Below, piece after piece: positions 1 through 15,919 of a DNA stretch of 16,061 bases. The DNA comes from Methylococcaceae bacterium (lineage in GTDB: Bacteria; Pseudomonadota; Gammaproteobacteria; Methylococcales; Methylomonadaceae). The notes beneath the pieces were generated by a model. That model was not told where the DNA came from and made no database searches. It saw only the letters and a program-made list of their open reading frames with translations. The stretch is from NCBI GenBank assembly GCA_013140465.1, contig JABFST010000167.1:1-16061 (forward strand), read 5' to 3'. The position numbers and the translations under genes were made by a program. Position 1 is the stretch's first letter; each line of letters opens with the position of its first letter.

Positions 1-35
1 GGGTTGGGGTGGGTTCTGAATAATTTCGTGATAAG

Positions 36-899: not shown

Positions 900-942
900 A
901 GCGTAGTTTCTTAGGGTTATGGAGTGATAGCCAGCAAGGCCC

Positions 943-1878
943 TTACAACTGGTTAATCAGTTGCAGTTCTTGCGGATAAGGTGACATATAGTAGGAGTCT
1001 TCTATATAAGGGTCGGGGCATTTGCGAAAATGGTGCTTAAACAAGGTTAAAGGCACGATCAACGGTATCTCGCCGTGCCGATAACGTTCTATCAATTCGC
1101 AAAGCTCGGCTTTTTCATCGGCACTCAGCTGTTTTTTTAGATAGCCTTGGATATGTTGCAAGACATTGACATGGTTGCTGCGTTTGACCACCACTTTAAG
1201 CGTTTGCATCAGCTGCAAAATATACTGCCCCGCCCGCTCTGCCAAGTTTTCTTTGGTTAGCCCCGCTAATAACTGGCCTAAGTCACGATAATCGGCATGG
1301 CTCATGATGATGAGTTTGTGGCGGGCATGAAAAGTCGTCAGGCTTTGCAAACTTAAGCCAGCTTGCAGCATGGTTTTCCAGCGATACAGCACATAAACGC
1401 GCTGGATAAAGTTTTCGCGCAAGCCCGGATCGCCCAAACGCCCTTCTTCCTCTACAGGCAACAGTGGATTGTTGCGCATCATTTCCTCGGCGAAAATGCC
1501 TACGCCCTGCCGGTGTGGCTGCCCGCCTTCATACACCTTCACCCGTTCCATGCCACAACTGGGCGAATCTTTTTTTAAGATATAGCCACAGACATCGGCG
1601 AGTGGCGCGGTTTGTTGCGCTGCCGCCGCGCGTAACGCATCGGTCACGTCTAGGCTAGGGTCTTTAACGCCTACGCAGCGGATGCCATCGCCCTTTTTAA
1701 GCAAATGTATGGTGGGTCGGGGTATGCCCAAGCCTATCGCCACTTCTGGGCAATACGGACGAAATTCAAAATAGTTGCCTAAAGTGCCAATAATATAAGC
1801 ATCACTTTTATGTCCGCCGTCATAGCGCACGCGTTCGCCTAACAAACAGCTGCTGATGCCTATAGGGATTTTTTTCAT
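943..1878 (-). CDS. DUF523 and DUF1722 domain-containing protein (YbgA-type)
   Basis: This 311-aa protein has two domains. The N-terminal DUF523 part (about residues 1-150) carries the family's cysteine pattern: SSCLLGERVRYDG near residue 9, PYCPEVAIGLGIPRP near 42 and DSPSCGM near 105. These cysteines could bind a metal or an Fe-S cluster. The C-terminal DUF1722/YbgA part (about 165-305) is helical, with HARHKLIIMSH and a YxSPYPxEL ending typical of that family. The fusion is common in proteobacteria, sometimes next to photolyase genes, but no photolyase is visible here. Its biochemical role is not established. It is the first gene of a likely leftward operon with the SDR gene. The gap in front of it holds a small mobile element. 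Confidence 0.9.
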   Translation of the reverse strand: MKKIPIGISSCLLGERVRYDGGHKSDAYIIGTLGNYFEFRPYCPEVAIGLGIPRPTIHLLKKGDGIRCVGVKDPSLDVTDALRAAAAQQTAPLADVCGYILKKDSPSCGMERVKVYEGGQPHRQGVGIFAEEMMRNNPLLPVEEEGRLGDPGLRENFIQRVYVLYRWKTMLQAGLSLQSLTTFHARHKLIIMSHADYRDLGQLLAGLTKENLAERAGQYILQLMQTLKVVVKRSNHVNVLQHIQGYLKKQLSADEKAELCELIERYRHGEIPLIVPLTLFKHHFRKCPDPYIEDSYYMSPYPQELQLINQL

Positions 1879-2211
1879 GGGGGACTCCGTGGGCGGCTTA
1901 TAAATATCATGCCGACCAAATTAGGGGTGGATAACAGATGATTAAATATATCGTGATATTTAAAGCTATCTAGGCGTTGATGGCGTTCGTTTAAGGTCTT
2001 AAGCTATTGAGACTGTGAAAGAATTAACGCAAGCTTGCTCATCGGAGTGAAAAACAAGTTTTTCACTAAAACAACTAATTAAAACAAAGCCTTACTAAAA
2101 TAAAAATACCATTTTGTGATTATTTGAAATACTTTCACAGTCTCTATTGCCACAACTACTTTTTTTGCCCTAAGCCACGCGTTAATATTGGGACATCAAA
2201 CTAACCACAAC
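1879..2211. other. Intergenic region with a small mobile element
   Basis: This 333-base gap lies between the start of the DUF523-DUF1722 gene and the end of the rbgA gene, both on the minus strand. The part next to the DUF523 start must hold that operon's promoter, but I cannot pick a convincing -35/-10 pair. The middle is occupied by the inverted-repeat element at 2010-2143. I find no credible small ORF. Confidence 0.5.
2010..2143. mobile_element. MITE-like element with 12-bp terminal inverted repeats
   Basis: The ends are perfect inverted repeats: AGACTGTGAAAG (2010-2021) and CTTTCACAGTCT (2132-2143). The hexamer CTATTG flanks the element directly on both sides (2004-2009 and 2144-2149), as expected for a target-site duplication. 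The same bases can be read as a 13-bp repeat with a 4-bp TATT duplication, so the exact length of each is ambiguous. The AT-rich, non-coding interior has a perfect 10-bp hairpin, AGTGAAAAAC/GTTTTTCACT, at 2046-2067. There is no transposase, so it would be moved in trans. A related pair of ends occurs at 12513-12600. I cannot assign the parent insertion sequence family. Confidence 0.65.
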
Positions 2212-3126
2212 TTAAGACTTATTTTTTTGCAGCCGTGCTTTTTTCTTAGCCGCTTTTTCTGCGCGTATCTGTGCCAATTCGACCAATTCTTGCTCCATCA
2301 TTGCGGGGGTTTCCAAGCTGATACGGCCTATCATGCCCGCCCTTAACTCAGCCAGTAAAATTTTGGCTACCCTATCCATATCAACGTTGCCACCCGCACG
2401 CAAACAGCCACGGCTTTTGGCGATAGCCTCTAACAATTGTTGTTCTGTGCCGGGCAATTCGGGTAGTTGGTAGCGGGTTTTCAGCAACTCGGGATAATGC
2501 TGCAATAAATACTCGGCGGCAAAAAATGCAATTTGCGCGTGGTCGATAGCCGTGTCCTTAATCGCACCCGTCGTAGCCAAACGGTAGCCTGTGTTTGGAT
2601 TTTCCAAGTTAGGCCAAAGCACACCTGGGGTGTCCAACAACACAATCCCGTTGCCTAAGGCGATGCGCTGCTGCATTTTGGTGATGGCAGGTTCATTGCC
2701 AGTCTTGGCTATCATCCGCCCTGCCAGCACATTAATCAGCGTCGATTTGCCCACATTCGGGATGCCGACAATTAAGGTGTTGATAAGTTTAACGCTGGCG
2801 GCCTTATCGGGCAGCATCTTATGGCACAAATCCGATAATTGGCGGATTTTTTCGGGTTGCGAGACTGTCACCGCCAGCGTTTTAACGCCTTGCTCCAACT
2901 CCAAATAGCTTTGCCATTCTTGGGTCATGACAGGATCAGCCAAGTCGGTTTTGCTGAGTATTTTGATGCACGGCTTATCGCCGCGTAAAGTTGCCAACAT
3001 CGGGTTTTGGCTGCTGAACGGAATTCTGGCATCCAAAACCTCAATGACCAAATCAACCTGGTGCAAGGTTGTTTTGATCTCTTTGCTGGCCTTGTGCATG
3101 TGACCGGGGTACCACTGAATGAGCAT
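2212..3126 (-). CDS. ylqF: Ribosome biogenesis GTPase YlqF/RbgA
   Basis: This 304-aa protein is a circularly permuted GTPase of the YlqF/RbgA family, which acts late in assembly of the large ribosomal subunit. The G motifs come in permuted order: DAR (G5-like, 32-34), KTDL (G4, 59-62, with Ser instead of Asn before the Lys), GIPNVGKST (G1/P-loop, 121-129) and DTPG (G3, 165-168). The start MLIQWYPGHMHKA is the hallmark N-terminus of the family. The C-terminal part is the helical RNA-contacting region and ends in a very basic Lys/Arg-rich tail. It is transcribed divergently from yfbR, sharing a 122-base promoter region. Identification is firm. Confidence 0.95.
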   Translation of the reverse strand: MLIQWYPGHMHKASKEIKTTLHQVDLVIEVLDARIPFSSQNPMLATLRGDKPCIKILSKTDLADPVMTQEWQSYLELEQGVKTLAVTVSQPEKIRQLSDLCHKMLPDKAASVKLINTLIVGIPNVGKSTLINVLAGRMIAKTGNEPAITKMQQRIALGNGIVLLDTPGVLWPNLENPNTGYRLATTGAIKDTAIDHAQIAFFAAEYLLQHYPELLKTRYQLPELPGTEQQLLEAIAKSRGCLRAGGNVDMDRVAKILLAELRAGMIGRISLETPAMMEQELVELAQIRAEKAAKKKARLQKNKS

Positions 3127-3177
3127 AATATTAAAGAGTGTGATGGCGATGGGGAGCGGGTAAAATGGCCTTAACGT

Positions 3178-3191
3178 GCCTAACGTTAGGC
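3178..3191. promoter_or_regulatory. 14-bp perfect palindrome in the ylqF-yfbR divergent promoter region
   Basis: GCCTAACGTTAGGC is a perfect palindrome about 60 bases upstream of the yfbR start and 50 bases upstream of ylqF. A partial extra copy of its half-site (GGCCTTAACG) lies directly to its left. Its position between two divergent genes suits an operator, but no regulator is known from this window and the match could be chance. Confidence 0.3.
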
Positions 3192-3248
3192 CGGACTAAC
3201 CGAACACGATACCAGATTGCAGCCTTAACCCGTAGGAAATTCAGTACC

Positions 3249-3854
3249 ATGAGCAATATATCCGTATCCAGCAGTTTTTACGCCTACCTGTCCCGATTAA
3301 GATGGATTAAGCGCTGGGGACTTAAGCGCAACGCCCACGACGAAAATGTGATGGAACACAGCTGGGAAGTCGCGGTGATTGCGCACACGCTCGCGCTGAT
3401 TAAAAACCGCTATTATGGCGGCACGGTGGATGCCAACGCGATTGCCACCGCCGCGTTGTACCATGACATCACCGAAGTGATTACCGGGGATTTACCCACC
3501 CCGATCAAATACCATTCCAAAGCCATTAACGCGGCTTATAAACAAATAGAACAGCAAGCGGAAAATGAGCTGCTAAGCTTATTGCCCGCCGAGCTGCGCA
3601 GCGATTTTGAAGGCTTAATCCAACACGAAAAAATGCCGCCAGAGCATGTCAGCATTATCAAAGCTGCCGACAAAATTTCCGCCTATTTGAAATGCCAAGC
3701 CGAACTTAAAGCGGGGAATAGTGAATTTGAACTTGCCGCCGAACAATTGGCGTTAGCCATTAAGGCATCTGAACAAGCGGAAGTGATCTTTTTTATGCAA
3801 GCTTTTGTGCCCAGTTGCGGGCTGACTTTAGATGGGCTGATGAAAACCAATTAA
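3249..3854 (+). CDS. yfbR: 5'-deoxynucleotidase YfbR (HD-domain)
   Basis: This 201-aa HD-superfamily phosphohydrolase dephosphorylates deoxyribonucleoside 5'-monophosphates in E. coli, where it takes part in dNTP balance and thymidylate salvage. I chose the ATG at 3249 because the product then matches the usual ~200-aa length and N-terminus (SSFYAYLSRLRWIKRW). An AGGAA-type ribosome-binding site lies about 10 bases upstream; a longer reading from 3165 would add 28 uncharacteristic residues. Metal-binding residues are visible as EHS (His37) and YHD (His72, Asp73), followed by TEVITGDLPTPIKY, with Asp in KAADKISAYLKC supplying the last ligand. Its 3' end faces the HAD gene across a small mobile element. 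Confidence 0.93.
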   Translation: MSNISVSSSFYAYLSRLRWIKRWGLKRNAHDENVMEHSWEVAVIAHTLALIKNRYYGGTVDANAIATAALYHDITEVITGDLPTPIKYHSKAINAAYKQIEQQAENELLSLLPAELRSDFEGLIQHEKMPPEHVSIIKAADKISAYLKCQAELKAGNSEFELAAEQLALAIKASEQAEVIFFMQAFVPSCGLTLDGLMKTN

Positions 3855-3884
3855 CCAAAAAACCCAAACTAAGCATTCAAAATG

Positions 3885-4008
3885 GTAACTATTCAGAGCG
3901 ACTTCTAATAAGTCAAATTTACCGTAGGCTGAGCGGAGTCGAAGCCGGTTTGTTCGCTTCGACTCCGCTCAGCGAACGGCTGTTGTGCCCCGGATGCTGA
4001 ATAGTTAC
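3885..4008. mobile_element. 124-bp MITE with IS66-like ends and 8-bp target duplication
   Basis: The ends are perfect 12-bp inverted repeats: GTAACTATTCAG (3885-3896) and CTGAATAGTTAC (3997-4008). TCAAAATG directly abuts both ends (3877-3884 and 4009-4016), a perfect 8-bp target-site duplication. Ends beginning GTAA together with 8-bp duplications are the known signature of IS66-family elements, so an IS66-type transposase may mobilise it; that link is inference. The interior carries a long REP-like hairpin (3928-3973) and no ORF. It sits between the convergent ends of yfbR and the HAD gene, where the hairpin could also act as a bidirectional transcription stop. Confidence 0.75.
3928..3973. 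repeat. REP-like palindrome with an 18-bp perfect stem
   Basis: GCTGAGCGGAGTCGAAGC (3928-3945) pairs perfectly with GCTTCGACTCCGCTCAGC (3956-3973) around a 10-base loop. CCGT (3922-3925) and ACGG (3976-3979) continue the stem after a 2-base internal mismatch. This GC-rich motif resembles the TTCGACTCCGCTCAGC-type repeats that are frequent in many bacterial genomes. It lies inside the 124-bp element. Confidence 0.75.
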
Positions 4009-4036
4009 TCAAAATGTAATAAAAACCCGCTTACCG

Positions 4037-4699
4037 TTATAGCTTTAATAACGCCAACACCTGCAGCAAATCGTCCGCAACCCCATCACACAAAGCCAAC
4101 GTCAGCGGATCGACACTCGCCGCTGACGGCACTAAAACCGACCGCGCCCCAGCCTGATGCGCCGCGACGATGCCCGTGTGCGAATCCTCCAACACCAAGC
4201 ACTGGGCCACAGGCACTTGCAAGCGTTCGGCGGCGTTTAAAAACAAATCGGGGCTGGGTTTAGGCAACAGCACATCATCGCGCGTCACCACTAGTGCAAA
4301 TGCCTCGCTAATACCCGCCAACCTCAGGCATTCATGGGCATTGGCGGCAGGGCTGTTGGTCGCCAAACCGTAAGGCAAACCCTGCTCCAGCAGATAATCC
4401 AACAATTCCAAAACACCGCGCCGTAAGGCTATGCCGTGTTCTTGCACATACTCACGCCAATAGCTGCCGCACAACTGGTTAAAGTGCGGCAAATCAAACC
4501 CCTCGCCTCCAGCCGCCGCCAATTTGAGCATAATGTCTTTGCCGCCTAGCCCCGACAAACTCTGCCAAAACGCCGCTGGCGGCGCAAACCCCATCGTCTC
4601 TGCCGCCTGTTGCCACGCAATAAGATAAGTGCGTTCGGTATCCAACACCAAGCCGTCCATATCAAAAATAACGGCGGAAATATCGCCCAGCTTAAGCAC
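4037..4699 (-). CDS. HAD-superfamily hydrolase (beta-phosphoglucomutase/phosphatase-like)
   Basis: This 220-aa HAD hydrolase has all four motifs: FDMDG with nucleophile Asp13 and Asp15, ATNS (113-116), KP with Lys147, and LEDSHTG with Glu171/Asp172. The helical cap inserted after motif I makes it a subclass-I HAD like the sugar-phosphate phosphatases and beta-phosphoglucomutases. The exact substrate cannot be read from the sequence. The start is a GTG. An AAGGTG ribosome-binding site lies about 5 bases upstream, and the start overlaps the end of the upstream nucleotidyltransferase gene by 8 bases, which implies translational coupling. Its 3' end lies 28 bases from the mobile element. Confidence 0.88.
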   Translation of the reverse strand: MLKLGDISAVIFDMDGLVLDTERTYLIAWQQAAETMGFAPPAAFWQSLSGLGGKDIMLKLAAAGGEGFDLPHFNQLCGSYWREYVQEHGIALRRGVLELLDYLLEQGLPYGLATNSPAANAHECLRLAGISEAFALVVTRDDVLLPKPSPDLFLNAAERLQVPVAQCLVLEDSHTGIVAAHQAGARSVLVPSAASVDPLTLALCDGVADDLLQVLALLKL

Positions 4700-5630
4700 G
4701 GATCACCTTAATATATTCACCCGTGGCTTCGCGGCTAGAGCCTACCAACAAGCGTTGCTGGCCTGAGGGGTCTTGCTCGACCTGCCCCGAAATTTCTACT
4801 GTTTCGCCAGTAACCGCTTGCCCCGCATAAGTCGCGGTAAAGCTGACCACCGTGGCATACTGCGCATGGTCTAACACCAACAGCGACGGGTAATCAAAGG
4901 CATAAGTGTCATCCAACACTTGGCATTGCACAGTGGCAAACCCGCATTTTTGATACTGTATTGGCGCAATCACCCGCGCATCCACCCAACTTAAATCAAA
5001 CTTGCGCCCCTGTACCAAGGCTTTATTGCCCTTACGCCGCTCATGCCAAACATAGTCCTCAAAACTCAGGGCGCAAGCGCGGCGTTGATAAGACTCATGC
5101 CAATCCTGCTCATGCAAATCCTGCAACAAGCCCGCCGCAAGCAAAGCGCGGATAGCGGCACGGCAGTGCTGGAACAGCCCGCGCTCATAACACAGTAAAT
5201 CAATATCCGAGCTGGTTTTTTGTACGCCGACCAAGATGGAACCTGTCACCCCCAACTGCGACACATCAATCCCCTGCCCTTGCAATAATTGGCACAACAC
5301 CGATAAATCCGCAGTCACCGTCTCTTCAGGGCGATCTTGCAACAACTGCCGTAAGCGTTGTTGCGCCGGATAATGGCGGACAATGCGGGCAAGCGCGACC
5401 GCATGTAACTGGGCATCCAACAGCGGCGAATAATGCAGATAATCGGGGTGATGGCGGGCTAAAAACGCATTCGCCTGTTCGGTGGCAAGTTTTTCCCAAC
5501 CTGTTGCGGTCTTGATATAACGCAAAAAACACAGCACTTTGCCTTGCTCGACACCCGACGCAACAACGGCAAATATCAGCCCTTCGGCAGTTTCAACAAA
5601 ATCTTTAGATAAAATGACACGCGCCCTCAT
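4692..5630 (-). CDS. Nucleotidyltransferase-fold (Pol beta superfamily) protein of unknown function
   Basis: This 312-aa protein has a central nucleotidyltransferase core. GS at residues 130-131 is followed by SSDIDLL, giving the metal-binding pair Asp142/Asp144, and a third acidic residue is plausible at Asp212 in KFDLSWV. The full GS-x10-DxD signature suggests it is active. The N-terminal ~100 residues (with VETAEGLIFAVV and VLCFLRYIKTATGW) and a beta-rich C-terminal tail of about 65 residues are not part of the catalytic core. From memory, the N-terminal block resembles hypothetical nucleotidyltransferases common in archaea; that should be verified. It is coupled to the HAD gene by an 8-base overlap, so the two products probably act in one pathway. 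The substrate is unknown. Confidence 0.75.
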   Translation of the reverse strand: MRARVILSKDFVETAEGLIFAVVASGVEQGKVLCFLRYIKTATGWEKLATEQANAFLARHHPDYLHYSPLLDAQLHAVALARIVRHYPAQQRLRQLLQDRPEETVTADLSVLCQLLQGQGIDVSQLGVTGSILVGVQKTSSDIDLLCYERGLFQHCRAAIRALLAAGLLQDLHEQDWHESYQRRACALSFEDYVWHERRKGNKALVQGRKFDLSWVDARVIAPIQYQKCGFATVQCQVLDDTYAFDYPSLLVLDHAQYATVVSFTATYAGQAVTGETVEISGQVEQDPSGQQRLLVGSSREATGEYIKVIRA

Positions 5631-5849: not shown

Positions 5850-6338
5850 TTATTCTTCTGCATCAGGTGCAAGTGCTTTTAAAGCATTATCTGTTGTCCA
5901 AATGTGAACTTTATAACCATGTTGTCTATATTTTTTAGACAATTTTTCTGCTTCTAATAAAACAGAGGTATCAGTTAAACCTAAGCCTTGAATTGAATAT
6001 TCATTTGAAAACTTTAATAATGTTTCTGTAAGTTGTTCAATAGCCGCTAACTCTTTACAAGGCGTAATAATCCAAGGCATCTTATCCTTTACACAACTTT
6101 CGACAGTCTTTGCTAATCTTTCAGCTAATTGTTTTCTACGATAACCATTATTAATATGTGCAATGTGGTTGGCTAACTCAAATAAAACTGAAACAGGGAC
6201 ATAAAATTGAAAACCTTGATGAGCTGCTTGTTTAAATTTCTCATCAATAGCCTGATGTGTACTATCGTTAGAGTGTCCATCAACTTTAAATAGCTCAAGT
6301 AAATAACCTGTATCAACAACATAATAACGCTTAGTCAT
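5850..6338 (-). CDS. PIN-domain nuclease, partner of an AAA ATPase
   Basis: This 162-aa PIN-domain protein has the four acidic catalytic positions in order: Asp9 (VVDTGYLLELF), Glu54 (VLFELANHI), Asp123 (GLTDTSVL) and Asp150 (WTTDNAL). PIN domains are metal-dependent RNases or DNases. It is somewhat longer than VapC-type toxins, and no VapB-like antitoxin gene is adjacent. Instead its start overlaps the end of an ABC/OLD-like ATPase gene by 8 bases. That suggests the ATPase senses or controls the nuclease, as in two-gene defence systems. It is AT-rich compared with the core genes at 1-5630, which fits horizontal acquisition. The fold is fairly sure; the defence role is inferred. Confidence 0.8.
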   Translation of the reverse strand: MTKRYYVVDTGYLLELFKVDGHSNDSTHQAIDEKFKQAAHQGFQFYVPVSVLFELANHIAHINNGYRRKQLAERLAKTVESCVKDKMPWIITPCKELAAIEQLTETLLKFSNEYSIQGLGLTDTSVLLEAEKLSKKYRQHGYKVHIWTTDNALKALAPDAEE

Positions 6339-7641
6339 TCAAAGACTCCAACCAAGCAAGTGTATTTTTGCGTTGCTGTTTTTCGTAATCAGGTATTAAA
6401 TGTTGCTCGATAATATTATGAGTCACTGCACTACCCAAACCTTCCATTTCTAGAAATGCGTCTGCCCTTGGTAACTCTAAAAGTGGCGTAAGTTTGGCAG
6501 ACTGGCTTTCTTTATCATAATGGCATACCACCACACATGCTAATTGCTCATCTTTTAAACTATCTAAAGTGGCAGGATTATGGGTCGTCATTAAAGTCTT
6601 TAAATGACGGCGATGACTGGCTTCCCAAATTGCCTCAATTAATATATTGACTCTTGACGCATGAACGCCGTTGTCGATTTCTTCAATAAGAATGCGCGAA
6701 CCCTCGGGAACAGTTTCTAAAGCAGTAAGAATAGCCAAAGCACGGAGAGTTCCATCAGATAATAATTTTGCGCTGATTTGTTCGCCATTCGGATACTTTA
6801 AGGCGAACAATACATCACTGTTATCAGATGTTGTTATAAACTCAAAACTTTCAAACTCTTCTTCGGGTAATTGTTTTATACGGTTCAATATTTTTTCTAG
6901 CGTGTCAGGCGCGTTATTTTTTAAATAAAAAAGTACAGAAGATAGCTTAGCACCATTTTTACTTAACTGGTTTTCACCTATCTGACTATATTCCCTCATT
7001 GCACGCGGATATATATCAAATACAAAGGTATCAGTATATTTTTTTAATAAAAGCTCAGGATCTAGCTGTTCTTTATAAGATTTAGTCTGATTTTTATTAA
7101 TTGCTGAAAAAGCCGTAAGCAGTAAAACCCCAATACCCAATTTACTAATATTTTTATTTTCTGAAGAAAATAATCCTAACCCCGCTATTAAGGCCATTAA
7201 AAGTAACGCATCATTGTCCGAATAATTATTTAACACAGGTATCTGGTCAAGTAGATTTTTACCATCTACCATAGCTTGTTTATTGACTTGTAGAGTGGGT
7301 TCTAAATTTACACTAACTTGATAATTAATGTTCTGTTCTTTTTGTTCAAAAAATACCGTGTCTTTAAAGCCAATTTCAAAACTAGAATAGCCTTGCCGAC
7401 TGCAACTATTCAAACCACCTCGAATCTCAAAATCCCCATCTCGCCCCACATCAAAAATTTCATGTAAGTCACGCCCTTTAAGTAATTCTGATAATAATTC
7501 AATACCTTCAATAATATTTGATTTACCTGAACCATTACGCCCAATGAGTATAGTCATAGGCTTAGATAAATCAATTTCTGCTTCAGCAAAATTTTTAAAA
7601 TTTTTAAAAGTGTGCATGCTTTTATGTCCATTATTAACCAC
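6331..7641 (-). CDS. ABC/OLD-like AAA ATPase, putative defence module with PIN nuclease
   Basis: This 436-aa single-chain ATPase is of the AAA_15/AAA_21 type (RecF/SMC/OLD-related). It has Walker A GRNGSGKS (34-41), an ABC-signature-like LLSDGTLR (293-300), Walker B ILIEEID (317-323) and H-loop THNP (353-356). There is no TOPRIM domain after the ATPase, so the effector is presumably the overlapping PIN protein. The start is uncertain: a GTG at 7641 or an ATG at 7617 (MHTFKNFKNF), both with weak ribosome-binding sites. The second looks more like the family's usual beginning. The insertion between Walker A and signature holds two hydrophobic stretches (about 144-159 and 168-181). A clear promoter lies upstream at 7677-7706. 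The gene is AT-rich and probably foreign. Confidence 0.85.
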   Translation of the reverse strand: MVNNGHKSMHTFKNFKNFAEAEIDLSKPMTILIGRNGSGKSNIIEGIELLSELLKGRDLHEIFDVGRDGDFEIRGGLNSCSRQGYSSFEIGFKDTVFFEQKEQNINYQVSVNLEPTLQVNKQAMVDGKNLLDQIPVLNNYSDNDALLLMALIAGLGLFSSENKNISKLGIGVLLLTAFSAINKNQTKSYKEQLDPELLLKKYTDTFVFDIYPRAMREYSQIGENQLSKNGAKLSSVLFYLKNNAPDTLEKILNRIKQLPEEEFESFEFITTSDNSDVLFALKYPNGEQISAKLLSDGTLRALAILTALETVPEGSRILIEEIDNGVHASRVNILIEAIWEASHRRHLKTLMTTHNPATLDSLKDEQLACVVVCHYDKESQSAKLTPLLELPRADAFLEMEGLGSAVTHNIIEQHLIPDYEKQQRKNTLAWLESLND

Positions 7642-8067
7642 TATATTTTATAGTAGCAAGTGCTTAGCAAAAAGCCATTATGTATACCATCTTATTTTGA
7701 TGTCAAATCTTCTGTAATTGGCAGAGAAAAATACATGCTATTTTTTTGCAACTCGCTTATAAGTTGGGCTGCCACTCTGTGACACCCCAAAATAATACGC
7801 AAATGAAGCGAATATTATTTCATCTTTTCGCGTTCAAACTCTTATTCTATCAGCTCCAGATTAAATCAGTCCGCAATAACAGTTATGGCTGCAAGCGCAC
7901 TCCAGTGGCGGTAAATTGTCGTTGCAGACGGCTAGGACAACTGGCGGTAAAACGAGTTCGCCCAAGGCTGTGACGGGGATGTCGGTTTTAAAGAAGGTAC
8001 AAAGTTCTAGATGGGCGTTGGTGTATAAATCAAACGCGTAACAAGGGTTTGTGTAGCTTCGTAGCTC
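7642..8067. other. Promoter region followed by unexplained sequence
   Basis: The first part, to about 7710, is the leader and promoter of the ATPase gene. From about 7860 composition returns to mid-GC. Short open frames exist on both strands, including a Cys-rich minus-strand frame that reads through to 8259. None has a start signal, a recognisable domain or a partner. I read it as gene debris next to the Ig-like fragment rather than a working gene. Confidence 0.4.
7677..7706 (-). promoter_or_regulatory. Sigma70-type promoter of the AAA ATPase-PIN operon
   Basis: Reading the minus strand, a perfect -35 TTGACA (7706-7701) is followed after 18 bases by CATAAT (7682-7677), five of six bases of the -10 consensus. 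Transcription would start near 7670, about 30 bases before the GTG and 50 before the ATG start of the ATPase gene. Confidence 0.55.
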
Positions 8068-8100
8068 GGGCGCGGCTTTTTCTCTCCCGACACCAATATC

Positions 8101-8331
8101 ATAATCTATGTCGTCGGCCCAAGGCCCACGGGTGCGTTGACTATCGACGCCAAAACTGGCTTGCTCACTTTCCCGACCAGCCCGTTCGGGACTCTCAACG
8201 GCACACGGGCTTTCCGTTTCACCGTTAAGGCCACCGACGGTCAGGGTACTGTGACCCAAACCACAGCGGGGGTGATTTGCAAGTCACCCAAGACGTGGAA
8301 CAATAACCAAGGAAAATGTGTAAGCCCTTAA
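8101..8331 (+). pseudogene. Orphan C-terminal fragment of an Ig-like repeat protein
   Basis: The plus-strand frame ending at the TAA of 8329-8331 encodes a typical bacterial Ig/cadherin-like module end. It has TIDAKTGLLTF, then RFTVKATDGQGTVTQ, and finishes with two cysteines (CKSPKTWNNNQGKC). No start codon with a ribosome-binding site is present. The frame is open only back to the TAG at 8062-8064, and the residues before about 8110 no longer look like an Ig module, so the front of the gene is missing. A terminator follows 60 bases later, which fits the true 3' end of a former, larger surface-protein gene. Family type is moderately sure; it is probably non-functional. Confidence 0.55.
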
Positions 8332-8392
8332 CGCTAACCCAGCCGCAAAAAAATCCTTTTAAACGGCTTTAACCGTTCAAAACGGGATCACT

Positions 8393-8418
8393 AGGGACGC
8401 TTCGGCATCCCTTTTTTT
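8393..8418 (+). terminator. Rho-independent terminator with a TTCG loop
   Basis: AGGGACGC and GCATCCCT form an 8-bp stem with one mismatch, closed by a TTCG tetraloop and followed by seven Ts. It faces rightward and would end transcription of the Ig-like gene fragment. Confidence 0.75.
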
Positions 8419-8471
8419 ACTGATGCAAATGAAAGGCGTTCAAAATACCCAGCCAAAACTAAACTGGCGGC

Positions 8472-8549
8472 CTAATCCGCCGTAGACATTTCCACTAACA
8501 AGCGTAGAAAATCCATAACCCTGCCGCCAAATACGTCGTTATGGTCGGC
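8472..8549 (-). pseudogene. Truncated second copy of the hydrolase lipoprotein gene's 3' end
   Basis: These 78 bases match 9338-9415, the 3' end of the alpha/beta-hydrolase lipoprotein gene, at 72 of 78 positions and end at the same TAG stop. All six differences are synonymous, so the encoded tail (VFGGRVMDFLRLLVEMSTAD) is identical. Similarity stops abruptly beyond 8549. The frame stays open to an ATG at 8604-8606, giving a 44-codon ORF whose first half is unrelated. It is most likely the leftover of a paralogue removed by deletion. Confidence 0.75.
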
Positions 8550-8653
8550 ACTCAGCAAGTAGCCCTTATGAAGCTTTCGTAATACGGGTAGTAGTCGCGC
8601 GAACATTCCATGTGTGCTTGGTTTACGTTACTGCGTTGAGGGAACTAGGTCAG

Positions 8654-8989
8654 TCATTTTTCACAACAATTTAAACCTAAACAGACTGTATGATGGATAC
8701 GTTTAAAAGCATCATCAGAAAGCTTGCCTATCCGTTGGACTATCAATGCGTTATTCATTGTCACAAGCTTGTCAACACGGACATAACTTTTTTGGGGTAG
8801 TAAACCAAGTACAAAGTCATCTTGATGCTACACAACAGCATTTTCGTAACCTGATTGGGACGTTATTTGCACCGCTAAAAAATCCCCCTGAACGTTGGCT
8901 GCCGTCAGTATAAGTACGGGGCGTTTTTTATTGGCCGAGAGGTCGCTAAATGGGAAGGGTAACAAAACAATCTCAGATGGCTGGTACAT
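8654..8989 (-). pseudogene. PemK/MazF-like toxin gene interrupted by an in-frame amber codon
   Basis: From the ATG at 8989 the frame encodes MYQPSEIVLLPFPFSDL, KKRPVLIL and GDFLAVQITSQ, the start of a type II PemK/MazF-family endoribonuclease. A TAG at 8828-8830 stops it after 53 residues. The same frame then continues without further stops through HQDDFVLG, PQKSYVRVDKLVT and QRIGKLSDDAFKRIH to a TGA at 8654-8656. That is the normal second half of this family, and the total of about 111 codons is the normal length. A single base change has therefore probably inactivated the toxin, unless the amber codon is read through. The gene overlaps the end of the antitoxin gene by 17 bases, a typical toxin-antitoxin arrangement. 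A GAGG ribosome-binding site precedes the ATG. Confidence 0.8.
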
Positions 8990-9173
8990 TATTCCATACC
9001 TCATCCTCAGTGTTGTCCCAATCTGACAATGAAACGGTTTGGGCATGCATCAAGTTTTGCCATTCAACGGCTGCTTCACGCTGGCGTAAAAACAACGCAA
9101 AATCCAAAATTTCTTGAACAATAGGATCGGGTAAAGGTTTAACGGCTTGATAGACTTGTTCGGCAAGATTCAT
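8973..9173 (-). CDS. Antitoxin (DUF2281-like) of a PemK/MazF-type toxin-antitoxin pair
   Basis: This 66-aa protein starts at the ATG of 9171-9173, preceded by a good AGGTG ribosome-binding site. It begins MNLAEQVYQAVKPLP and continues into EILDFALFLRQRE, a helical N-terminal pattern seen in DUF2281-type and similar small antitoxins. The tail is acidic (SLSDWDNTEDEVW), as expected for the toxin-binding part. The gene overlaps the toxin gene by 17 bases. The antitoxin appears intact while its toxin carries an amber stop, so it may now be a solitary antitoxin. Confidence 0.7.
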   Translation of the reverse strand: MNLAEQVYQAVKPLPDPIVQEILDFALFLRQREAAVEWQNLMHAQTVSLSDWDNTEDEVWNNVPAI

Positions 9174-9297
9174 AAAACACCTCAAATATTAAACATAGGT
9201 TTGATGAAGTGATGGTAAATCAGTGACCAGAGATGGGCAACGCAGTTATGTTTTTGAGCCTATGTACGCGTGCCTAGGTTCTGGAGACTGCATAGTT

Positions 9298-9326
9298 GTC
9301 GTGTTAGGCGATAGCCATAACACGAC
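9298..9326. repeat. Hairpin downstream of the hydrolase lipoprotein gene
   Basis: GTCGTGTTA (9298-9306) and TAACACGAC (9318-9326) are perfect 9-bp inverted repeats. An inner GGC/GCC pair extends the structure. It lies 12 bases past the stop codon of the leftward hydrolase gene. It lacks a T-run on either strand, so it is not a classical terminator but could protect the mRNA 3' end. Confidence 0.5.
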
Positions 9327-9337
9327 CAGCGCAACTT

Positions 9338-10618
9338 CTAATCCGCCGTAGACATTTCCACCAACAAACGCAAAAAATCCATAACTCTGCCGCCAAATAC
9401 ATCGTTATGGTCGGCGATGAGTTCTTTATCGACACGGACATTGAGATAGGGGTTGCGGGGGTTGGTTTTGTTGAGGTGGGTCAACACGGTGGTGCCAAAC
9501 TGGGTGGAACCGCCTGTGGTTTGCGCTGCCCAGATGTTTTTCATGTTGGTGTAATTGGCTATTGCCATGTGTGGGTCTTGCGGGTTGGTCGGCGTTAAGG
9601 TGTGGGAAATTAACGGTCCAAAATGTCCGACCGCACTCCGGTCGGCTGCGCCTTCGTCCAAGCTGAGCGGGAATTTGCAATCATTACGTTGGATCGTGCC
9701 GTGGGTTTCAAAAAATGTGGAAAAAAACTGTCCGGCGGGAAATGCGTATTTAGTTGCGTAATCGGCTTCTGAGGTTAATATCGCCAGTTTGGGGACTTGG
9801 TTATCAAAATAACTGCACTGGGCTTGCGCCAAGTCGTAAGCGGGCGCGTAGCGTAATGCTTCAAAAGCGGGGTTTAACAACACCACCAAATCGCCAAAGC
9901 CGTTGGCATCCCCCGCAGAGCTTTTGCCTACTTTGCTATTGACAAACCGATCTGCCAAAATTTGGGTGGTGGCACTGAACACGACCGCCCCGCCAAAGCT
10001 GTGGCCCATCACGACCAAGCGGCTTTTAATCGGCGGTGTAAGCGCATTTTTAACATTGGCGATTTCTTCCAATCTCACCAGCAATTCCGTCACCCCCAAA
10101 TGCCCGACTTCCTGCGCGGTGCTTTTGCGGTCCCAAAAGGTCAGGTAGTTTAAGCCGGGAACATCAATCGATTCGCCGCGCCAGCCCACATACACACCAA
10201 CCACTTTGCGGGTTGCGGTATGTTTGGTCAGGCTTAAGTCATGCTCAATTTTACTGAGCCTAGCCAACGCGCCTTTAAAGCTTTCGATATTAGGATCGCC
10301 GGGGCGGGCGTTGTGATGCCAGCCATGCACGAACACGTTGATGATGATGCTGTCATTGACCGCGAGCTGGTAGAGTTTATCCAGTAATGCTTGCATTTGC
10401 GCACGGTCACGCAATTGGCCTTGGTCGTCCACTTCAACAAACCCGAGCAAAAATTCATCAGCCGCCGCCGTGTTGTATTGTTGTAGGGAATGTGCCTGGC
10501 ATGGGTTGTCTGCCGTAGCAAGGCAAGGGCTATAGTCGGAGCGGTAGATACCATTGGCGGCGCACCCTGTGAGTAAAACCAAGGGCATAACTGCAAGTAA
10601 TTTTTTTAGCGTAAGCAT
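9338..10618 (-). CDS. Alpha/beta-hydrolase lipoprotein
   Basis: I place the start at the ATG of 10616-10618 because an AAGGGAA ribosome-binding site precedes it and the product then begins with a lipoprotein signal peptide. MLTLKKLLAV is followed by a hydrophobic run and the lipobox LLTGC, with Cys19 as lipidation site. The 426-aa protein would therefore be anchored to a membrane facing the periplasm or the outside. Serine-hydrolase features are the oxyanion strand FVHGW (96-100) and the nucleophile elbow GHSFGG with Ser207. The catalytic acid and His cannot be assigned safely. It could be a lipase or esterase. A truncated second copy of its 3' end lies at 8472-8549. A longer reading from 10729 would have no signal peptide at its N-terminus and is rejected. 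Confidence 0.82.
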   Translation of the reverse strand: MLTLKKLLAVMPLVLLTGCAANGIYRSDYSPCLATADNPCQAHSLQQYNTAAADEFLLGFVEVDDQGQLRDRAQMQALLDKLYQLAVNDSIIINVFVHGWHHNARPGDPNIESFKGALARLSKIEHDLSLTKHTATRKVVGVYVGWRGESIDVPGLNYLTFWDRKSTAQEVGHLGVTELLVRLEEIANVKNALTPPIKSRLVVMGHSFGGAVVFSATTQILADRFVNSKVGKSSAGDANGFGDLVVLLNPAFEALRYAPAYDLAQAQCSYFDNQVPKLAILTSEADYATKYAFPAGQFFSTFFETHGTIQRNDCKFPLSLDEGAADRSAVGHFGPLISHTLTPTNPQDPHMAIANYTNMKNIWAAQTTGGSTQFGTTVLTHLNKTNPRNPYLNVRVDKELIADHNDVFGGRVMDFLRLLVEMSTAD

Positions 10619-11159
10619 GGCGTTCCCTTTGTATCGAAATTTGTACTTATTCTGGCGTAAAACCACGGTGATGTATGGTTTCCCCATCAGGTGATTTTCA
10701 CCTTTGCTGGCGCAGTTTGCAATGTACAAACAGCTTTCAGTTGGGACGGCTTAAGGGTTTGGGTTATGTGCAGACTGATGGACATGCAACTGTTCGGTGC
10801 TTTTAATGCGCAAGGCGCATTCGCCGATGGGAACTGTGAGGGTATTTATCGGGAAAGGTTTTAGCTCCCACAAAACTTTAAAACCACAGAGATCGATACC
10901 ATCCTTAGGCTTAATCTCCCATCGTTAGACACAACTCTCCAGTAAAAAACAGCAATCGGGTTCCCCACTTTTCAAAAGGGGGAAGTCCATAGTTTGAACT
11001 TGTGTAACCGATGCGGGTTAATCCGGTTCATGCCCGCTTCATCTTAAAATGCTAGCCTAGGTGTCCTTTATGTCGGCGCATTAACAAGACCCGCCACTGA
11101 TTGCGTACAGCAAACAATAACGCTATATGCACGCCGAATCTATTATTCATGGACATTCT
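10619..11159. other. Divergent intergenic region with small hairpins
   Basis: This 541-base region separates the leftward hydrolase from the rightward porin-cytochrome gene and must hold both promoters. A perfect 7-bp hairpin, AATGCGC/GCGCATT with a 3-base loop, lies at 10805-10821. A weak promoter-like pair (TTGAAC, 17 bases, GTTAAT) lies near 10997-11025, facing the cytochrome gene. A 32-codon plus-strand ORF at 10766-10864 is open, but it has no ribosome-binding site or recognisable family. Confidence 0.4.
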
Positions 11160-12446
11160 ATGCCACTAAAATCAACCACTTATAACAGGCACGCAGTTCT
11201 GGCCTTATTGGCGATAGCCAGTTACTACTCTTCTTCTGCGTTCGCGTTGCCTAGCTTTGCCAGACAAACGGGGGAATCTTGTACGGCATGTCATGTACAA
11301 ACATGGGGTGCAGACCTGACCCCACGAGGCCGTGATTTTAAATTAAAAGCCTATACCGACGAAGGGGCAACAACACCTACCCGACAATTGCCCGCACTGA
11401 GCGTAACAGCAGTAGGCGGCGGTAATTTGGCTGATTATGAAAATGCCTCAGGCTATCGCAACAGCAATGACAACAGTTTTTTTAAAGGTTCGGTCTTTTA
11501 CGCGGGCAAAGTTTATGGCCAAATGGGCGCTTATGTGGAAGGTACTTATTTTAACGACTTCGACAACAACACTGATTATGGCCTGAACAAGGTGGACATA
11601 CGCATAGCCAAGCAAGCCGATTGGGCGGGGCATCATCTCGTTTATGGGGTATCTGCCAATAACGAACCTGGGGTACAAGACCTCTGGAACACCAACGCAA
11701 CTTGGCAGCCAACCTTAATCGGCAAACTTAATGGCAGTATTTTGGCTGATCATGGTCTTGCCGGACACACGGGTGGCGCGACGCTTTATGCCATGTTCGA
11801 TAATCTGTTATACGTTGAGGCGGGTGCTTATGCCTCCTTAGCGAATAATGTGCAAAACTGGATATCCCGACCCAGCACGCTAAAAATTGACGGGGCAGCC
11901 CCTTATTGGCGTATCGCCCTGCAACACGATTGGAACGGACATTATCTGGCACTGGGGCATTTTGGCTTGCGTGCCGATACAAAGGGTGACGGTTTTTACA
12001 ATCCGACCTCTGCTTCTTATTCTGACCTAGGGGTCGATGCCAGTTATCAGTATTTAGCCAACCCTAAGCATATTGTTGAGTTTAAAGGCCGCTACGCCCA
12101 AGAAAGCAGATCCCAACAATTCTATGATGTCTACCGCTCCGAAGCGACTATCGATACTTTCAACTTGACTGGCGCCTATACTTGGCAACAAACAGTTGGT
12201 TTATCAATGGGATATTTAATGACCCGCCTAGCTGAAAATGCGACTTATCGCGATTATTTAAAACAGGATTATGATTTTTTAAGTGTTGAACTCGCTTATA
12301 CCCCGTTTGGCAAACAAAGCTCACATGCCGCCCCTTGGTTAAACCTGCGCCTAAATTTAAGTTACACCACAGAATTGACGCATCTTAAAAACCCTTACCA
12401 AACCACGCTTGATTTGTTGCAGCTAAGCGGACAGTTAACGTTTTAA
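11160..12446 (+). CDS. Outer-membrane porin-cytochrome fusion (mono-haem, Cyc2-like architecture)
   Basis: From the ATG at 11160 this is a 428-aa exported protein. A signal peptide ends at SSSAFA (residue 29) and is followed by LPSFARQTGESCTACH, a single CxxCH haem-c site at residues 41-45, then LTPRGRDFKLKAYT. The remaining ~360 residues alternate Gly/aromatic-rich strands and end in a C-terminal Phe (LQLSGQLTF), as outer-membrane beta barrels do. A haem domain fused to a porin is the architecture of Cyc2-type iron oxidases and related extracellular electron-transfer proteins, but many homologues are uncharacterised. An alternative ATG lies at 11127; neither has a strong ribosome-binding site. 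No partner electron-transfer genes are adjacent. Barrel and haem site are convincing; the physiological role is not known. Confidence 0.82.
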   Translation: MPLKSTTYNRHAVLALLAIASYYSSSAFALPSFARQTGESCTACHVQTWGADLTPRGRDFKLKAYTDEGATTPTRQLPALSVTAVGGGNLADYENASGYRNSNDNSFFKGSVFYAGKVYGQMGAYVEGTYFNDFDNNTDYGLNKVDIRIAKQADWAGHHLVYGVSANNEPGVQDLWNTNATWQPTLIGKLNGSILADHGLAGHTGGATLYAMFDNLLYVEAGAYASLANNVQNWISRPSTLKIDGAAPYWRIALQHDWNGHYLALGHFGLRADTKGDGFYNPTSASYSDLGVDASYQYLANPKHIVEFKGRYAQESRSQQFYDVYRSEATIDTFNLTGAYTWQQTVGLSMGYLMTRLAENATYRDYLKQDYDFLSVELAYTPFGKQSSHAAPWLNLRLNLSYTTELTHLKNPYQTTLDLLQLSGQLTF

Positions 12447-12842: not shown

Positions 12843-15455
12843 TTATTTTTTTTGCCGCATTGTGCTGATGTTAAATCCATCTATGTAAATATTAGCAATG
12901 GAATAATCGTATTTATGAGAATATTTTTTATCTTGCAGCACACCAATATCTTTTAAGCGTTTCAAAAAAGCATCAAAAGTATTAAATTGAGATTGCAATT
13001 GTGTTGATTTTTGCCAAAAATCTTTCATTTTTTCTTTGCTAAACAAAGACCCAAGCGTACCGATATTATTAAAGAATTCAGATAACTCGGGATATTCATT
13101 TTTAATGGCATCAAATCGTTCTACAGAAGCTGCTTCTAAACCTTTGGTAAGAGAATTCCAGCGTAATAAATGGTCAGTAGGAGCTGATTTTCCTTGAGGT
13201 TGTTGTAATTCAACTTCTTTAGCTTTATTCAATAAAATAATTAATGAATTGGGATAAATATTACCATTTAAATCTATTAAGTTTGAATAAAGCCAGTCTG
13301 CAATATAATTTTTTTTACCCTCTATGCGTAATCCCCAAAGTGGCGATAAAGCTTTTCGTAATATTTGTTCATTGCTTTCATCTAACTCATTATCAACTAA
13401 AGGAAAAATGCGATGAGAAAGCAGTTTGAATTCAGAAGATCCCGTTATAGTAAGACGATAAGCCAAGCCAAAAAAATCTTTTTTTCCCCATTGTAAAAGT
13501 ACAGTTTTAGCGTCACTAAAATAATTATTCTTGCTAAAAACTAATTTTTGCCAAGTTTCTTCGCGTAAAAATATTTTAAAACGAATATTACCAAAGTCTG
13601 GATGGTTTGCTAAACGCATTAATCCACCTAAAGTCTCTAATTGCCAAGTTTGACTTTCATTTATATCTTGGTCTAAATCATCATAAAGAACCCACAAACT
13701 TTTATCATCTTTTTCTCTAAGAGTAGAATCTAAAAGTATCATTGCGTGAAAACATAACTCATTTAAGTTTTTATCTATAACAAGTTCTAATAGTTTTTGT
13801 GTGTGGTATGATTCCCAAATAGTATATTTAGTTTTGTCAAAGGAATCATTAAGTTTAGATAACAAAGGTTTTGTATCCAAAAAATCTAATACGCGTTTTA
13901 AATAAGGATAATTACGATATATTTGCACAATTGCATAAGCACACCATAACGATAACCAATCATTTTCTATTTTTTTCAATTCTTGCTGGATAATAGAAAA
14001 ACTAGCAGATGTTAATTTAAATTCATTGCTGCCGCCATGTCCTGAAATAATATCAATATAATTTAAACGATTTCTTGAACGTTTTTCAGCGTTTTTTCTA
14101 TATTTAGTTAATAGCGTATATAAGATTGATTTTCCTGTTCCCTTATGCCCTCTAATTACCCAAGTTTGAGCATCTAAACAACGATTAAAATCAGTAGTTT
14201 TTTGAAAAATAGCATCAAACTCAGCATCTAAAATACTACTTATATCACGTTCAGGAAAACTTAAAGATTTAATTAGTTCTAAACGATTCAATTTTGCCAA
14301 TATCTCGGCTGTTTCTTCAATACCGCTGATTTCTAGTAATTGATTAGCCAATGGTGCGTAATAAGGTAAAGCAGGTTCTACAGGGAATTGATTACTGACT
14401 GCAATATTAAGATCGTAGTAGATTGAAATAGGCTCTTCATCCTCAATTAAATTTAAGAATGGTTTTATTTTTTTTACTAAGAAATCACCAGCTTCACCTA
14501 CAGGAATAGGCGATAAAACTAATTTAGCTTGAACCCCTGTTAATTCTTTTAATAAACTTCTAACAAAACAAATTCCTTCGGCATTTTGTTGACTGGGGTA
14601 TAAAACGACAAAGGCTTCTTCAGCAAGCTGTAATAAAGACAAACCGCCCCATTCATTTAAACCAGTACGCGCATCGATGAGCATAATATCAGGTTGATAT
14701 TGTTTCCAAAGTTCCTCTTCAAATTGATACCAAGGGTCAGATATTTCAGAAAATAAATGCGTAGTAGATAAAATAGATAAACGTTGAATATAACGTTGTC
14801 CTATTTTGCCTGCGGGGACAATAAATAGATCACGGCGTGATTGGTTATCTTTAACGCTATAAATAATATTGGTTAATTCAATTTGTGGCTGATGAGTCTC
14901 ATCAAAAAAACAGGTTTGGCGTTCCCATAAATAATCAATCAAACCTTCATCAACAGGTTTATCACTAGGAGGTAATAAAGATTGTAAACCTGGTGCTTCG
15001 ACATCCATATCTACCAAAACAACCCGTTTGCCTTGTCGTGCGAGTTGAAACGCAGTTTGAATTAATGCAGTTGTACGTCCAACGCCGCCTTTATAAGAAT
15101 AAAAAACAACCCGTTTAATGGGTGGATGTTTAATTTTTTTGGGTAATGAGGTTTTTCCTGATGACAGCATTGCAACAGCATCTTGCCATGATAATGGCAA
15201 TCGTTCTTCGTCTGAGCGAATTGTTACATTTTCATCAGCCGCTTCTTCTGGTGTATAAAGTTCCAAAATACCAGGAGTCAACCCAACTTTTGTAATTAAC
15301 GGCTCAACTGTTTCTAAACGTTCTTTGCGCGTTTTATTTTCAAATTGAGGAGAAATAATTGTTAATAAAACAAATCCCCTTTCTCCGATATTTAATTCAA
15401 ATTGCTTAGGAAAATTCTTATGTAAATCCTTTCTTAACTGTGTTGAAACACTCAT
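12843..15455 (-). CDS. KGGVGR-variant ParA/MinD ATPase fused to a STAND/KAP-like P-loop ATPase
   Basis: This 870-aa protein is a double ATPase. Residues 1-110 form an uncharacterised N-terminal region. Residues 115-380 are a SIMIBI-class ParA/MinD-type domain with a deviant Walker A, YKGGVGRTT (121-129), in which the usual P-loop Lys is replaced by Arg127, plus VDMDVEAPGL (148-157) and LIDARTG (259-265). This matches the group known as KGGVGR-motif variant ATPases. Residues from about 400 onward hold a second P-loop domain with GHKGTGKS (436-443) and Walker B WVLYDDLD (587-594), followed by a long helical C-terminus, as in STAND/KAP-type NTPases. It is coupled to the HEPN-like gene by an ATGA overlap. 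AT-rich composition suggests transfer. A sensor-switch role in antiphage defence is inferred. Confidence 0.85.
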   Translation of the reverse strand: MSVSTQLRKDLHKNFPKQFELNIGERGFVLLTIISPQFENKTRKERLETVEPLITKVGLTPGILELYTPEEAADENVTIRSDEERLPLSWQDAVAMLSSGKTSLPKKIKHPPIKRVVFYSYKGGVGRTTALIQTAFQLARQGKRVVLVDMDVEAPGLQSLLPPSDKPVDEGLIDYLWERQTCFFDETHQPQIELTNIIYSVKDNQSRRDLFIVPAGKIGQRYIQRLSILSTTHLFSEISDPWYQFEEELWKQYQPDIMLIDARTGLNEWGGLSLLQLAEEAFVVLYPSQQNAEGICFVRSLLKELTGVQAKLVLSPIPVGEAGDFLVKKIKPFLNLIEDEEPISIYYDLNIAVSNQFPVEPALPYYAPLANQLLEISGIEETAEILAKLNRLELIKSLSFPERDISSILDAEFDAIFQKTTDFNRCLDAQTWVIRGHKGTGKSILYTLLTKYRKNAEKRSRNRLNYIDIISGHGGSNEFKLTSASFSIIQQELKKIENDWLSLWCAYAIVQIYRNYPYLKRVLDFLDTKPLLSKLNDSFDKTKYTIWESYHTQKLLELVIDKNLNELCFHAMILLDSTLREKDDKSLWVLYDDLDQDINESQTWQLETLGGLMRLANHPDFGNIRFKIFLREETWQKLVFSKNNYFSDAKTVLLQWGKKDFFGLAYRLTITGSSEFKLLSHRIFPLVDNELDESNEQILRKALSPLWGLRIEGKKNYIADWLYSNLIDLNGNIYPNSLIILLNKAKEVELQQPQGKSAPTDHLLRWNSLTKGLEAASVERFDAIKNEYPELSEFFNNIGTLGSLFSKEKMKDFWQKSTQLQSQFNTFDAFLKRLKDIGVLQDKKYSHKYDYSIANIYIDGFNISTMRQKK

Positions 15456-15919
15456 AGAATTATCCTGTTATTTTGTTGCAACCATTGGTTAATATAATTA
15501 AAACTATCTTGCCAAGCAGATATAGCTTGTTGTGTATCTGGAATATAACGTAAATTGATATAGTCAGGGTTTGATAAACCAAGTGGGCGTCTAATATTTT
15601 CAAGATGCCCGAAAAAATAGCTATCTGACAGGGCCGCAGCATTTAAAACCGGCATATCCTCAATAGCTTTTAGTAAATTATGACCAGGATTAAGGATAGG
15701 GTTATCGTACATTGCATCCCCGATGCGTTTGCTTTTTTCAGAGTCTGATACCTTAAAACCAAGTTTTGTTATTCGATGATACTTAAGCAACATGGCTTTT
15801 AACCGACACTCTATCGCTATCCCACCTAAATGAAAAATAGCAACTGCATGATTTTGATTTCTAGGTAACGCAAATATATCATTTTTTCTTGCTAAATAAG
15901 CACCTGTGAAGTCTTCCAT
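15452..15919 (-). CDS. Small HEPN-like helical protein, partner of the ParA/STAND ATPase
   Basis: This 155-aa, mostly helical protein resembles HEPN-fold proteins. The helix AIFHLGGIAIECRLKAMLLKYH (28-48) has the AGYxxECxLKA-like pattern of that fold. NPGHNLLKAIE (77-87) and an LRY segment near 123 also fit. A canonical Rx4-6H RNase motif is not obvious; Arg20 and His24 are three residues apart and could be a variant, so catalytic activity is uncertain. The stop codon overlaps the ATG of the ParA/STAND gene (ATGA at 15452-15455), so the two are translated together. As the first gene of the pair, it could be the effector controlled by the large ATPase. The start lacks a clear ribosome-binding site. 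Confidence 0.6.
   Translation of the reverse strand: MEDFTGAYLARKNDIFALPRNQNHAVAIFHLGGIAIECRLKAMLLKYHRITKLGFKVSDSEKSKRIGDAMYDNPILNPGHNLLKAIEDMPVLNAAALSDSYFFGHLENIRRPLGLSNPDYINLRYIPDTQQAISAWQDSFNYINQWLQQNNRIIL

Follow-up and report, generated by a model that had tools for sequence, protein, structure and literature searches.

A two-gene, B-C-fused variant of the defence candidate PDC-M28, encoding a HEPN-fold protein and a double-ATPase protein, in a Methylococcaceae genome

Is the pair of overlapping genes found in a draft genome of a Methylococcaceae bacterium a self-contained conflict module, and does it belong to a system already catalogued? The window that we analysed (the whole stretch of DNA, one contig of 16,061 bases) is part of a 3.6-Mb draft genome in 507 contigs, and all positions given here refer to it. 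A previous sequence-only reading had singled out two genes joined by an ATGA overlap as a candidate defence system, and both open reading frames are present as described: gene A (15452..15919, minus strand) codes for a 155-amino-acid protein with a predicted HEPN fold that is PDC-M28A-like, and gene BC (12843..15455, minus strand) for an 870-amino-acid fused protein that combines a BolA-like domain, a KGGVGR ParA-like domain and an Sll1717-family ATPase. According to the ORF positions, the overlap lies at 15452..15455 (minus strand). We found at least 283 relatives of the large protein (E ≤ 0.001, its own sequence counted, 7987 candidates scored) and 43 of the small one (its own sequence included). 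Because of these numbers, and because the P-loop and Walker residues of the large protein are invariant in 40/40 rows of an alignment picked from 120 relatives among the matches listed, the gene pair is more than a product of chance.

With a GC content of 0.327, the two-gene module is indeed AT-rich next to mid-GC genes (0.504 for positions 1-5600 and 0.475 for 7700-12442), but the block at 5850-7641 is GC-poor too (0.342). The overlapping genes of this block (minus strand), for an AAA-type ATPase and a PIN-domain protein, form another candidate pair and match PDC-M07A (E = 4e-92) and PDC-M07B (E = 5e-54). At 8828-9185 (minus strand), a short fragment with a weak match to PemK-like toxins (E = 0.0039, below the Pfam cut-off) adjoins a DUF2281 antitoxin-like gene (E = 5.6e-6); it resembles a toxin-antitoxin remnant, so that the earlier mention of such remains nearby is weakly supported. 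Elsewhere, the host genome carries a second pair of HEPN and KGGVGR genes (L126:2068-5210), whose 904-amino-acid protein has a weakly Sll1717-like C-terminus (E = 2.3e-15).

No named system with this pair had been known to the sequence-only reading. This view was wrong, and we dropped it, as the PDC-M28A (weakly), PDC-M28B and PDC-M28C models of the candidate PDC-M28 in PADLOC-DB 2.0.0 match; the same matches support the status of the locus as a candidate defence system. PDC-M28B recognizes the 870-amino-acid protein (E = 1.8e-33) and PDC-M28C the same polypeptide (E = 4.1e-21), and PDC-M28A matches residues 2-63 only of the 155-amino-acid protein (E = 7.5e-4, 18 bits). Split loci, which also occur in the same bacterial order, have three separate genes in the order A-B-C, a layout that we took as the yardstick although PADLOC's own rule may differ; here, B and C are fused. 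PDC-M28 is thus already known as a catalogued defence candidate, and the fused form is a variant of it. We consider it probable, with considerable room for doubt, that this two-gene, B-C-fused PDC-M28-type form is a self-contained, horizontally moving conflict module that most likely serves anti-phage defence. Defence is the best reading because the PDC-M28 models match, because the spread is patchy, and because split modules are inserted at a site that is closed in many of the relatives' loci. What is new here, as read from the sequences, is a predicted alternative-histidine HEPN protein, a BolA-like domain and a P-loop with an arginine.

The small protein was proposed to be a HEPN-type RNase effector. 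Its predicted structure displays the four-helix HEPN fold, so that the fold assignment holds at the level of a model; by sequence, it matches no Pfam family at E ≤ 1, HEPN_AbiV included, and a search against the PDB gave no useful match. All 43 aligned relatives (its own sequence included) possess the Ex3[KR] motif in helix 2, here ExxxK from E37 to K41 (15797..15811, minus strand), and E37, K41, H80, R124 and Y125 are identical in 43/43. Placed against the predicted helices (DSSP of the predicted structure), R124-Y125 (15545..15550, minus strand) occupies the position of the HEPN motif arginine, and H80 (15680..15682, minus strand), a candidate alternative active-site histidine, belongs to the segment inserted after helix 2 and before helix 3. 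Rx4-6H, the canonical RNase motif, is missing at its place, since a histidine 4-6 residues past R124 is present in 0/43; an R...H string with this spacing occurs somewhere else in 23/43, never at the motif place. H80 and R124 reproduce the AbiV/AF0298-type layout, with the arginine kept and an alternative histidine between helices 2 and 3; in the available text of Anantharaman 2013 (PMC3710099), such an arrangement may form an alternative active site. The RNase claim now depends on E37, K41, H80 and R124 as a predicted alternative-histidine RNase site. Between fused and split HEPN proteins, the H80 column is poorly aligned (20/50 rows, with many gaps, and ten of the 50 rows are non-HEPN partners), and we judged the equivalence of H80 by eye.

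The missing histidine would equally suit a nuclease-free regulatory or defence module, in which the HEPN protein is non-catalytic, binding nucleotides or serving as a scaffold, and the ATPases give the output. HEPN groups that lost the RNase motif and are likely inactive are described in the accessible part of PMC3710099, and the Pfam families matching the fused protein include no nuclease. Nevertheless, the invariance of E37, K41, H80 and R124 in just the layout of a possible alternative site argues against this idea, which we regard as quite improbable.

The fused protein contains the two P-loops noted earlier, KGGVGRTT at residues 122-129 (15069..15092, minus strand) and GHKGTGKS at 436-443 (14127..14150, minus strand); the Walker B motif DDLD is present as well, at 592-595 (13671..13682, minus strand) rather than one residue upstream at 591-594. 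Residues 112-378 (14322..15122, minus strand) adopt a SIMIBI/MinD fold in the predicted structure, which bears out their ParA/MinD-like character as far as a model can. The P-loop motif of ParA/MinD proteins is KGGxGK. The KGGVGR domain retains the signature lysine (K122 in 40/40 rows), but the catalytic P-loop lysine is replaced by an arginine (R127, likewise in 40/40). A second, separate P-loop ATPase follows at residues 411-852 (12900..14225, minus strand), matching NF047389 (NCBIfam ATPase_Sll1717; E = 1.3e-31) and, as given above, PDC-M28C. It had been called a STAND NTPase; a P-loop ATPase it is, but the STAND label stays tentative, as the family matched is ATPase_Sll1717 and no Pfam STAND model matched this half of the protein. 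A sequence search of this half against the PDB found nothing convincing (best E = 0.13), and the list from the fold search of the large protein was filled by matches to the first domain.

The N-terminal domain (residues 1-110; 15126..15455, minus strand) is BolA-like by profile and sequence comparisons, with a fold that we take to be of the KH-II type. Its profile aligns with BolA over 46 columns with an hhalign probability of 92.2% and a score of 39.5; scores in 200 column shuffles did not exceed 19.4, and the reversed profile gave 0.6%. The two matches at E ≤ 10 in a PDB search with residues 1-110 are both BolA (E = 0.27 and 0.68), and BolA (PF01722) is the commonest Pfam match, found in 6/17 members (best E = 0.0021); the contig's own N-terminal domain taken alone does not match PF01722. 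BolA proteins have an iron-sulphur role. The histidines of the BolA RH and HA motifs, invariant in 19 BolA sequences aligned, have no invariant counterpart in the N-terminal domain, and an iron-sulphur role is therefore unlikely.

What might this domain do instead? The wider KGGVGR family offers a clue. Selection by the motif KGGxGR yielded 122 ORFs, 80 of them distinct, of which 74 were judged after six with short upstream sequence had been dropped. We called an N-terminus long when 110 or more residues precede the motif, and a HEPN gene upstream when it ends within 900 nt ahead of the motif. On this basis, a HEPN gene lies upstream of 56/57 long-N-terminus genes vs 1/17 short ones, as judged with a HEPN profile for which 34 of these partners had served as training set (Fisher p = 4e-14, which is descriptive only because related genes are not independent). 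The single short-N-terminus gene with a HEPN partner, L011, is frame-broken and its N-terminus sits in another frame; L102 is the single long one in which no HEPN gene was found. As the long N-terminus tracks the HEPN gene, we infer that the N-terminal domain docks the HEPN protein. The literature searched on BolA with HEPN, ParA and phage defence contained no paper on such a docking role. Just 1/89 HEPN ORFs stands without a KGGVGR gene (L105). The ATPase beside this HEPN gene (L105:427-2867) reads RGGVGRS; its signature lysine is lost too. At L011:2694-5912, an intact HEPN gene is followed by a large gene split over several frames, by either decay or sequencing errors.

The long forms are also tied to the second ATPase: 58/61 have an Sll1717-type ATPase, 30 in the same frame and 28 in the next gene, two of these matches being marginal (L100, E = 3e-4; L104, E = 1.3e-3). 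The three long forms lacking a match are cut (L028 is short; beyond the motif, L101 and L102 extend for over 650 residues and show no match). Among 19 short forms, none of the 11 that could be judged has an Sll1717 ATPase, six are cut, and the two matches come from L011, which is broken, and L012, which is truncated. This near-perfect link of long N-terminus, HEPN protein and Sll1717 ATPase is likewise new. The C part of the fused protein of L085 resembles split C genes (E = 4.6e-69); B-C fusion has therefore probably arisen more than once, and B and C probably touch and work in contact. With regard to the upstream partners, two PDC-M28A models match 27/49 and 22/49, HEPN_AbiV matches 10/49 at E ≤ 0.1, and a few match CARF-, TIR- or HTH-like families; that the latter belong to short forms is something we infer, because the match tables do not name the matching member. 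The C-terminal domains of short forms are of the NACHT, Mrr, metallophosphatase, TPR and FGE-sulfatase types. In L031, L107 and L120, the KGGVGR domain fronts long NACHT proteins; those of L031 and L120 also contain an FGE-sulfatase domain, that of L031 a metallophosphatase domain as well, and that of L107 an Mrr nuclease domain.

Conservation of the pair across genomes had been posed as a decisive question, and the answer is positive. The profile of the large protein (E ≤ 1e-20) matches 23 out of 201 genomes belonging to the order, eight of them over its full length, and the small profile (E ≤ 1e-5) detects exactly these eight, with the genes adjacent; one further genome has a large-gene remnant without a detectable HEPN gene (L127, G121:C274). 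Across 21 loci, the distances of small and large proteins correlate with r = 0.945, a value reached in 0/2000 permutations (best 0.50). No fused-type HEPN gene without the large gene was detected in the 201 genomes at E ≤ 1e-5, which, together with the tight ATGA overlap, is what one would expect of a toxin-antitoxin-like pair with a HEPN toxin held by the ATPase; the available part of PMC3710099 proposes the same for the similar dyad of a HEPN protein (MAE_18760) and ParA/Soj. MAE_18760, however, keeps the Rx4-6H motif there, and the 155-amino-acid family does not. Moreover, the small gene of L011 is intact with its large gene in pieces, a situation in which a free toxin should not be tolerated, barring sequencing errors, and a second, active-looking ATPase exceeds the needs of an antitoxin. 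We therefore hold a toxin-antitoxin pair to be unlikely.

The preferred reading as a mobile conflict module draws on how the pair is distributed. GC content is lower in the module than in its flanks in 20/20 fused loci, and shared neighbours are scarce, with three two-member matches among 131 ORFs of 19 fused loci and ten genes of the contig. Methylococcales contribute 13/32 loci found and the closest named relatives, and cyanobacteria, Electrothrix and Paenibacillus are among the other carriers. Identity does not follow taxonomy, as the copies of Spirulina and Electrothrix reach about 56% and those of Thiodictyon and Nitrosospira 44-46%. Co-inheritance, few shared neighbours, low GC content and identity at odds with taxonomy together suggest that the fused pair is a two-gene unit that moves. 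Points against the preferred reading are that viral contigs and phages yielded no relative at the cut-offs used and plasmids one distant copy with 27% identity, that the PDC-M28A match is weak, and that the Rx4-6H motif is missing at its place.

The split modules point to a preferred site. Five of 11 (L111, L115, L116, L123, L124) lie between mnmA-like and purB-like genes (the names mnmA, purB, NUDIX and ClpA were read by eye from the sequence). In 14/30 relatives' loci, fetched by mnmA out of 38 matches, the site is closed, with an mnmA-purB gap of 28-337 bases; the other 16 lack purB in the available sequence, and of these, two are carriers and one has just 239 bases of room. The mnmA-purB site is likely an integration hotspot. 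Its recurrence might also be taken as a sign of a housekeeping role in the host without any conflict function, with which the lack of a clear defence enrichment near fused loci would agree. Against this stand the closed sites, the presence of the fused form in just 8/201 genomes, the breadth of its carriers and the scarcity of shared neighbours, so that a housekeeping role appears very improbable to us.

A location near known defence genes, also anticipated previously, is not apparent for the fused loci. Strong PADLOC matches (E ≤ 1e-25) beside 19 fused loci fall into 30 families, each in at most one of 131 ORFs and mainly represented by helicase models, for which a single protein might account, vs nine families, one of them in two ORFs, among 76 control ORFs from a small set of seven stretches of genomes carrying the fused form; ORFs above 1200 amino acids (fused, control) or 1300 (split) were left out, and since these tables count families and not proteins, no rate can be derived. 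Matches are more numerous beside split loci: among the 92 neighbour ORFs of the 11 split loci, mad3 is matched in three, and mad8, DrmD, a PLD helicase, a DUF1156 methyltransferase and a type II methyltransferase in two each; DolB and PDC-M37B match 5/92, which by count and site would be the ClpA-like gene beside mnmA. As the fused loci show no clear excess over the control, we rejected the neighbourhood as proof of defence.

Under the defence reading that we favour, the fused protein would be both sensor and switch. Its Sll1717-family ATPase, with Walker A and B intact, would sense an infection cue and change state; the KGGVGR domain, with its signature lysine kept and its catalytic lysine replaced by arginine, might relay this state as a nucleotide-gated dimer with little or no turnover; and the BolA/KH-like N-terminal domain would dock the HEPN protein and keep it inactive. 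Once released or rearranged, a HEPN dimer might cut RNA via the alternative Glu/Lys/His/Arg site, and growth would stop. More tentatively, and with doubts prevailing, KGGVGR could be a general plug-in immunity switch, a near-dead ParA-derived ATPase whose short form goes with other upstream genes and NACHT, Mrr or phosphatase domains, and whose long form has an N-terminal dock that nearly always brings in the alternative-histidine HEPN protein and the Sll1717 ATPase, the dock here being a recruited BolA/KH domain. The fused form would moreover show how a ParA-type ATPase without its catalytic lysine is reused as a switch. PDC-M28 has so far been a bare catalogue entry; the fused form provides a minimal two-gene version for cloning, a reason to think that B and C touch, a docking hypothesis for the N-terminal domain and the HEPN protein, and named catalytic candidates. 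This compact cassette hence offers testable ideas on how HEPN and ATPase parts cooperate.

How does the module compare with known systems? No paper naming PDC-M28, KGGVGR or Sll1717 was found in the literature library searched, nor one on a MinD-like ATPase with STAND. In the available text of PMC10855318 (2024), PDC entries are guilt-by-embedding candidates that are not validated, and that of PMC11514479 covers other PDC entries only. Kaur 2020 (PMC7159879) describes MinD/ParA-like domains that resemble the KGGVGR domain in being of the SIMIBI type, in belonging to conflict proteins and in being predicted as inactive; they differ in that they sit in vWA-MoxR and peptide-processing systems, with no HEPN pairing in the part of that source at hand. 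With regard to AbiV/AF0298-type HEPN-T proteins, the 155-amino-acid protein has no Pfam HEPN_AbiV match, unlike ten of the 49 KGGVGR partners. The MAE_18760 dyad likewise pairs a small HEPN gene with a neighbouring gene for a ParA/Soj-like ATPase, but no second ATPase is mentioned for it in the available part of PMC3710099, and we rejected an identity with MAE_18760 because the Rx4-6H motif is absent from the 155-amino-acid family. PDC-M28 itself is matched by its A (weakly), B and C models in the conserved order A-B-C; the fused form departs from it in joining B and C into one protein, in its weakly recognized A protein, and in its BolA-like N-terminal domain, as the corresponding domain of the split form, compared for six B proteins, shows no BolA match (0.3%).
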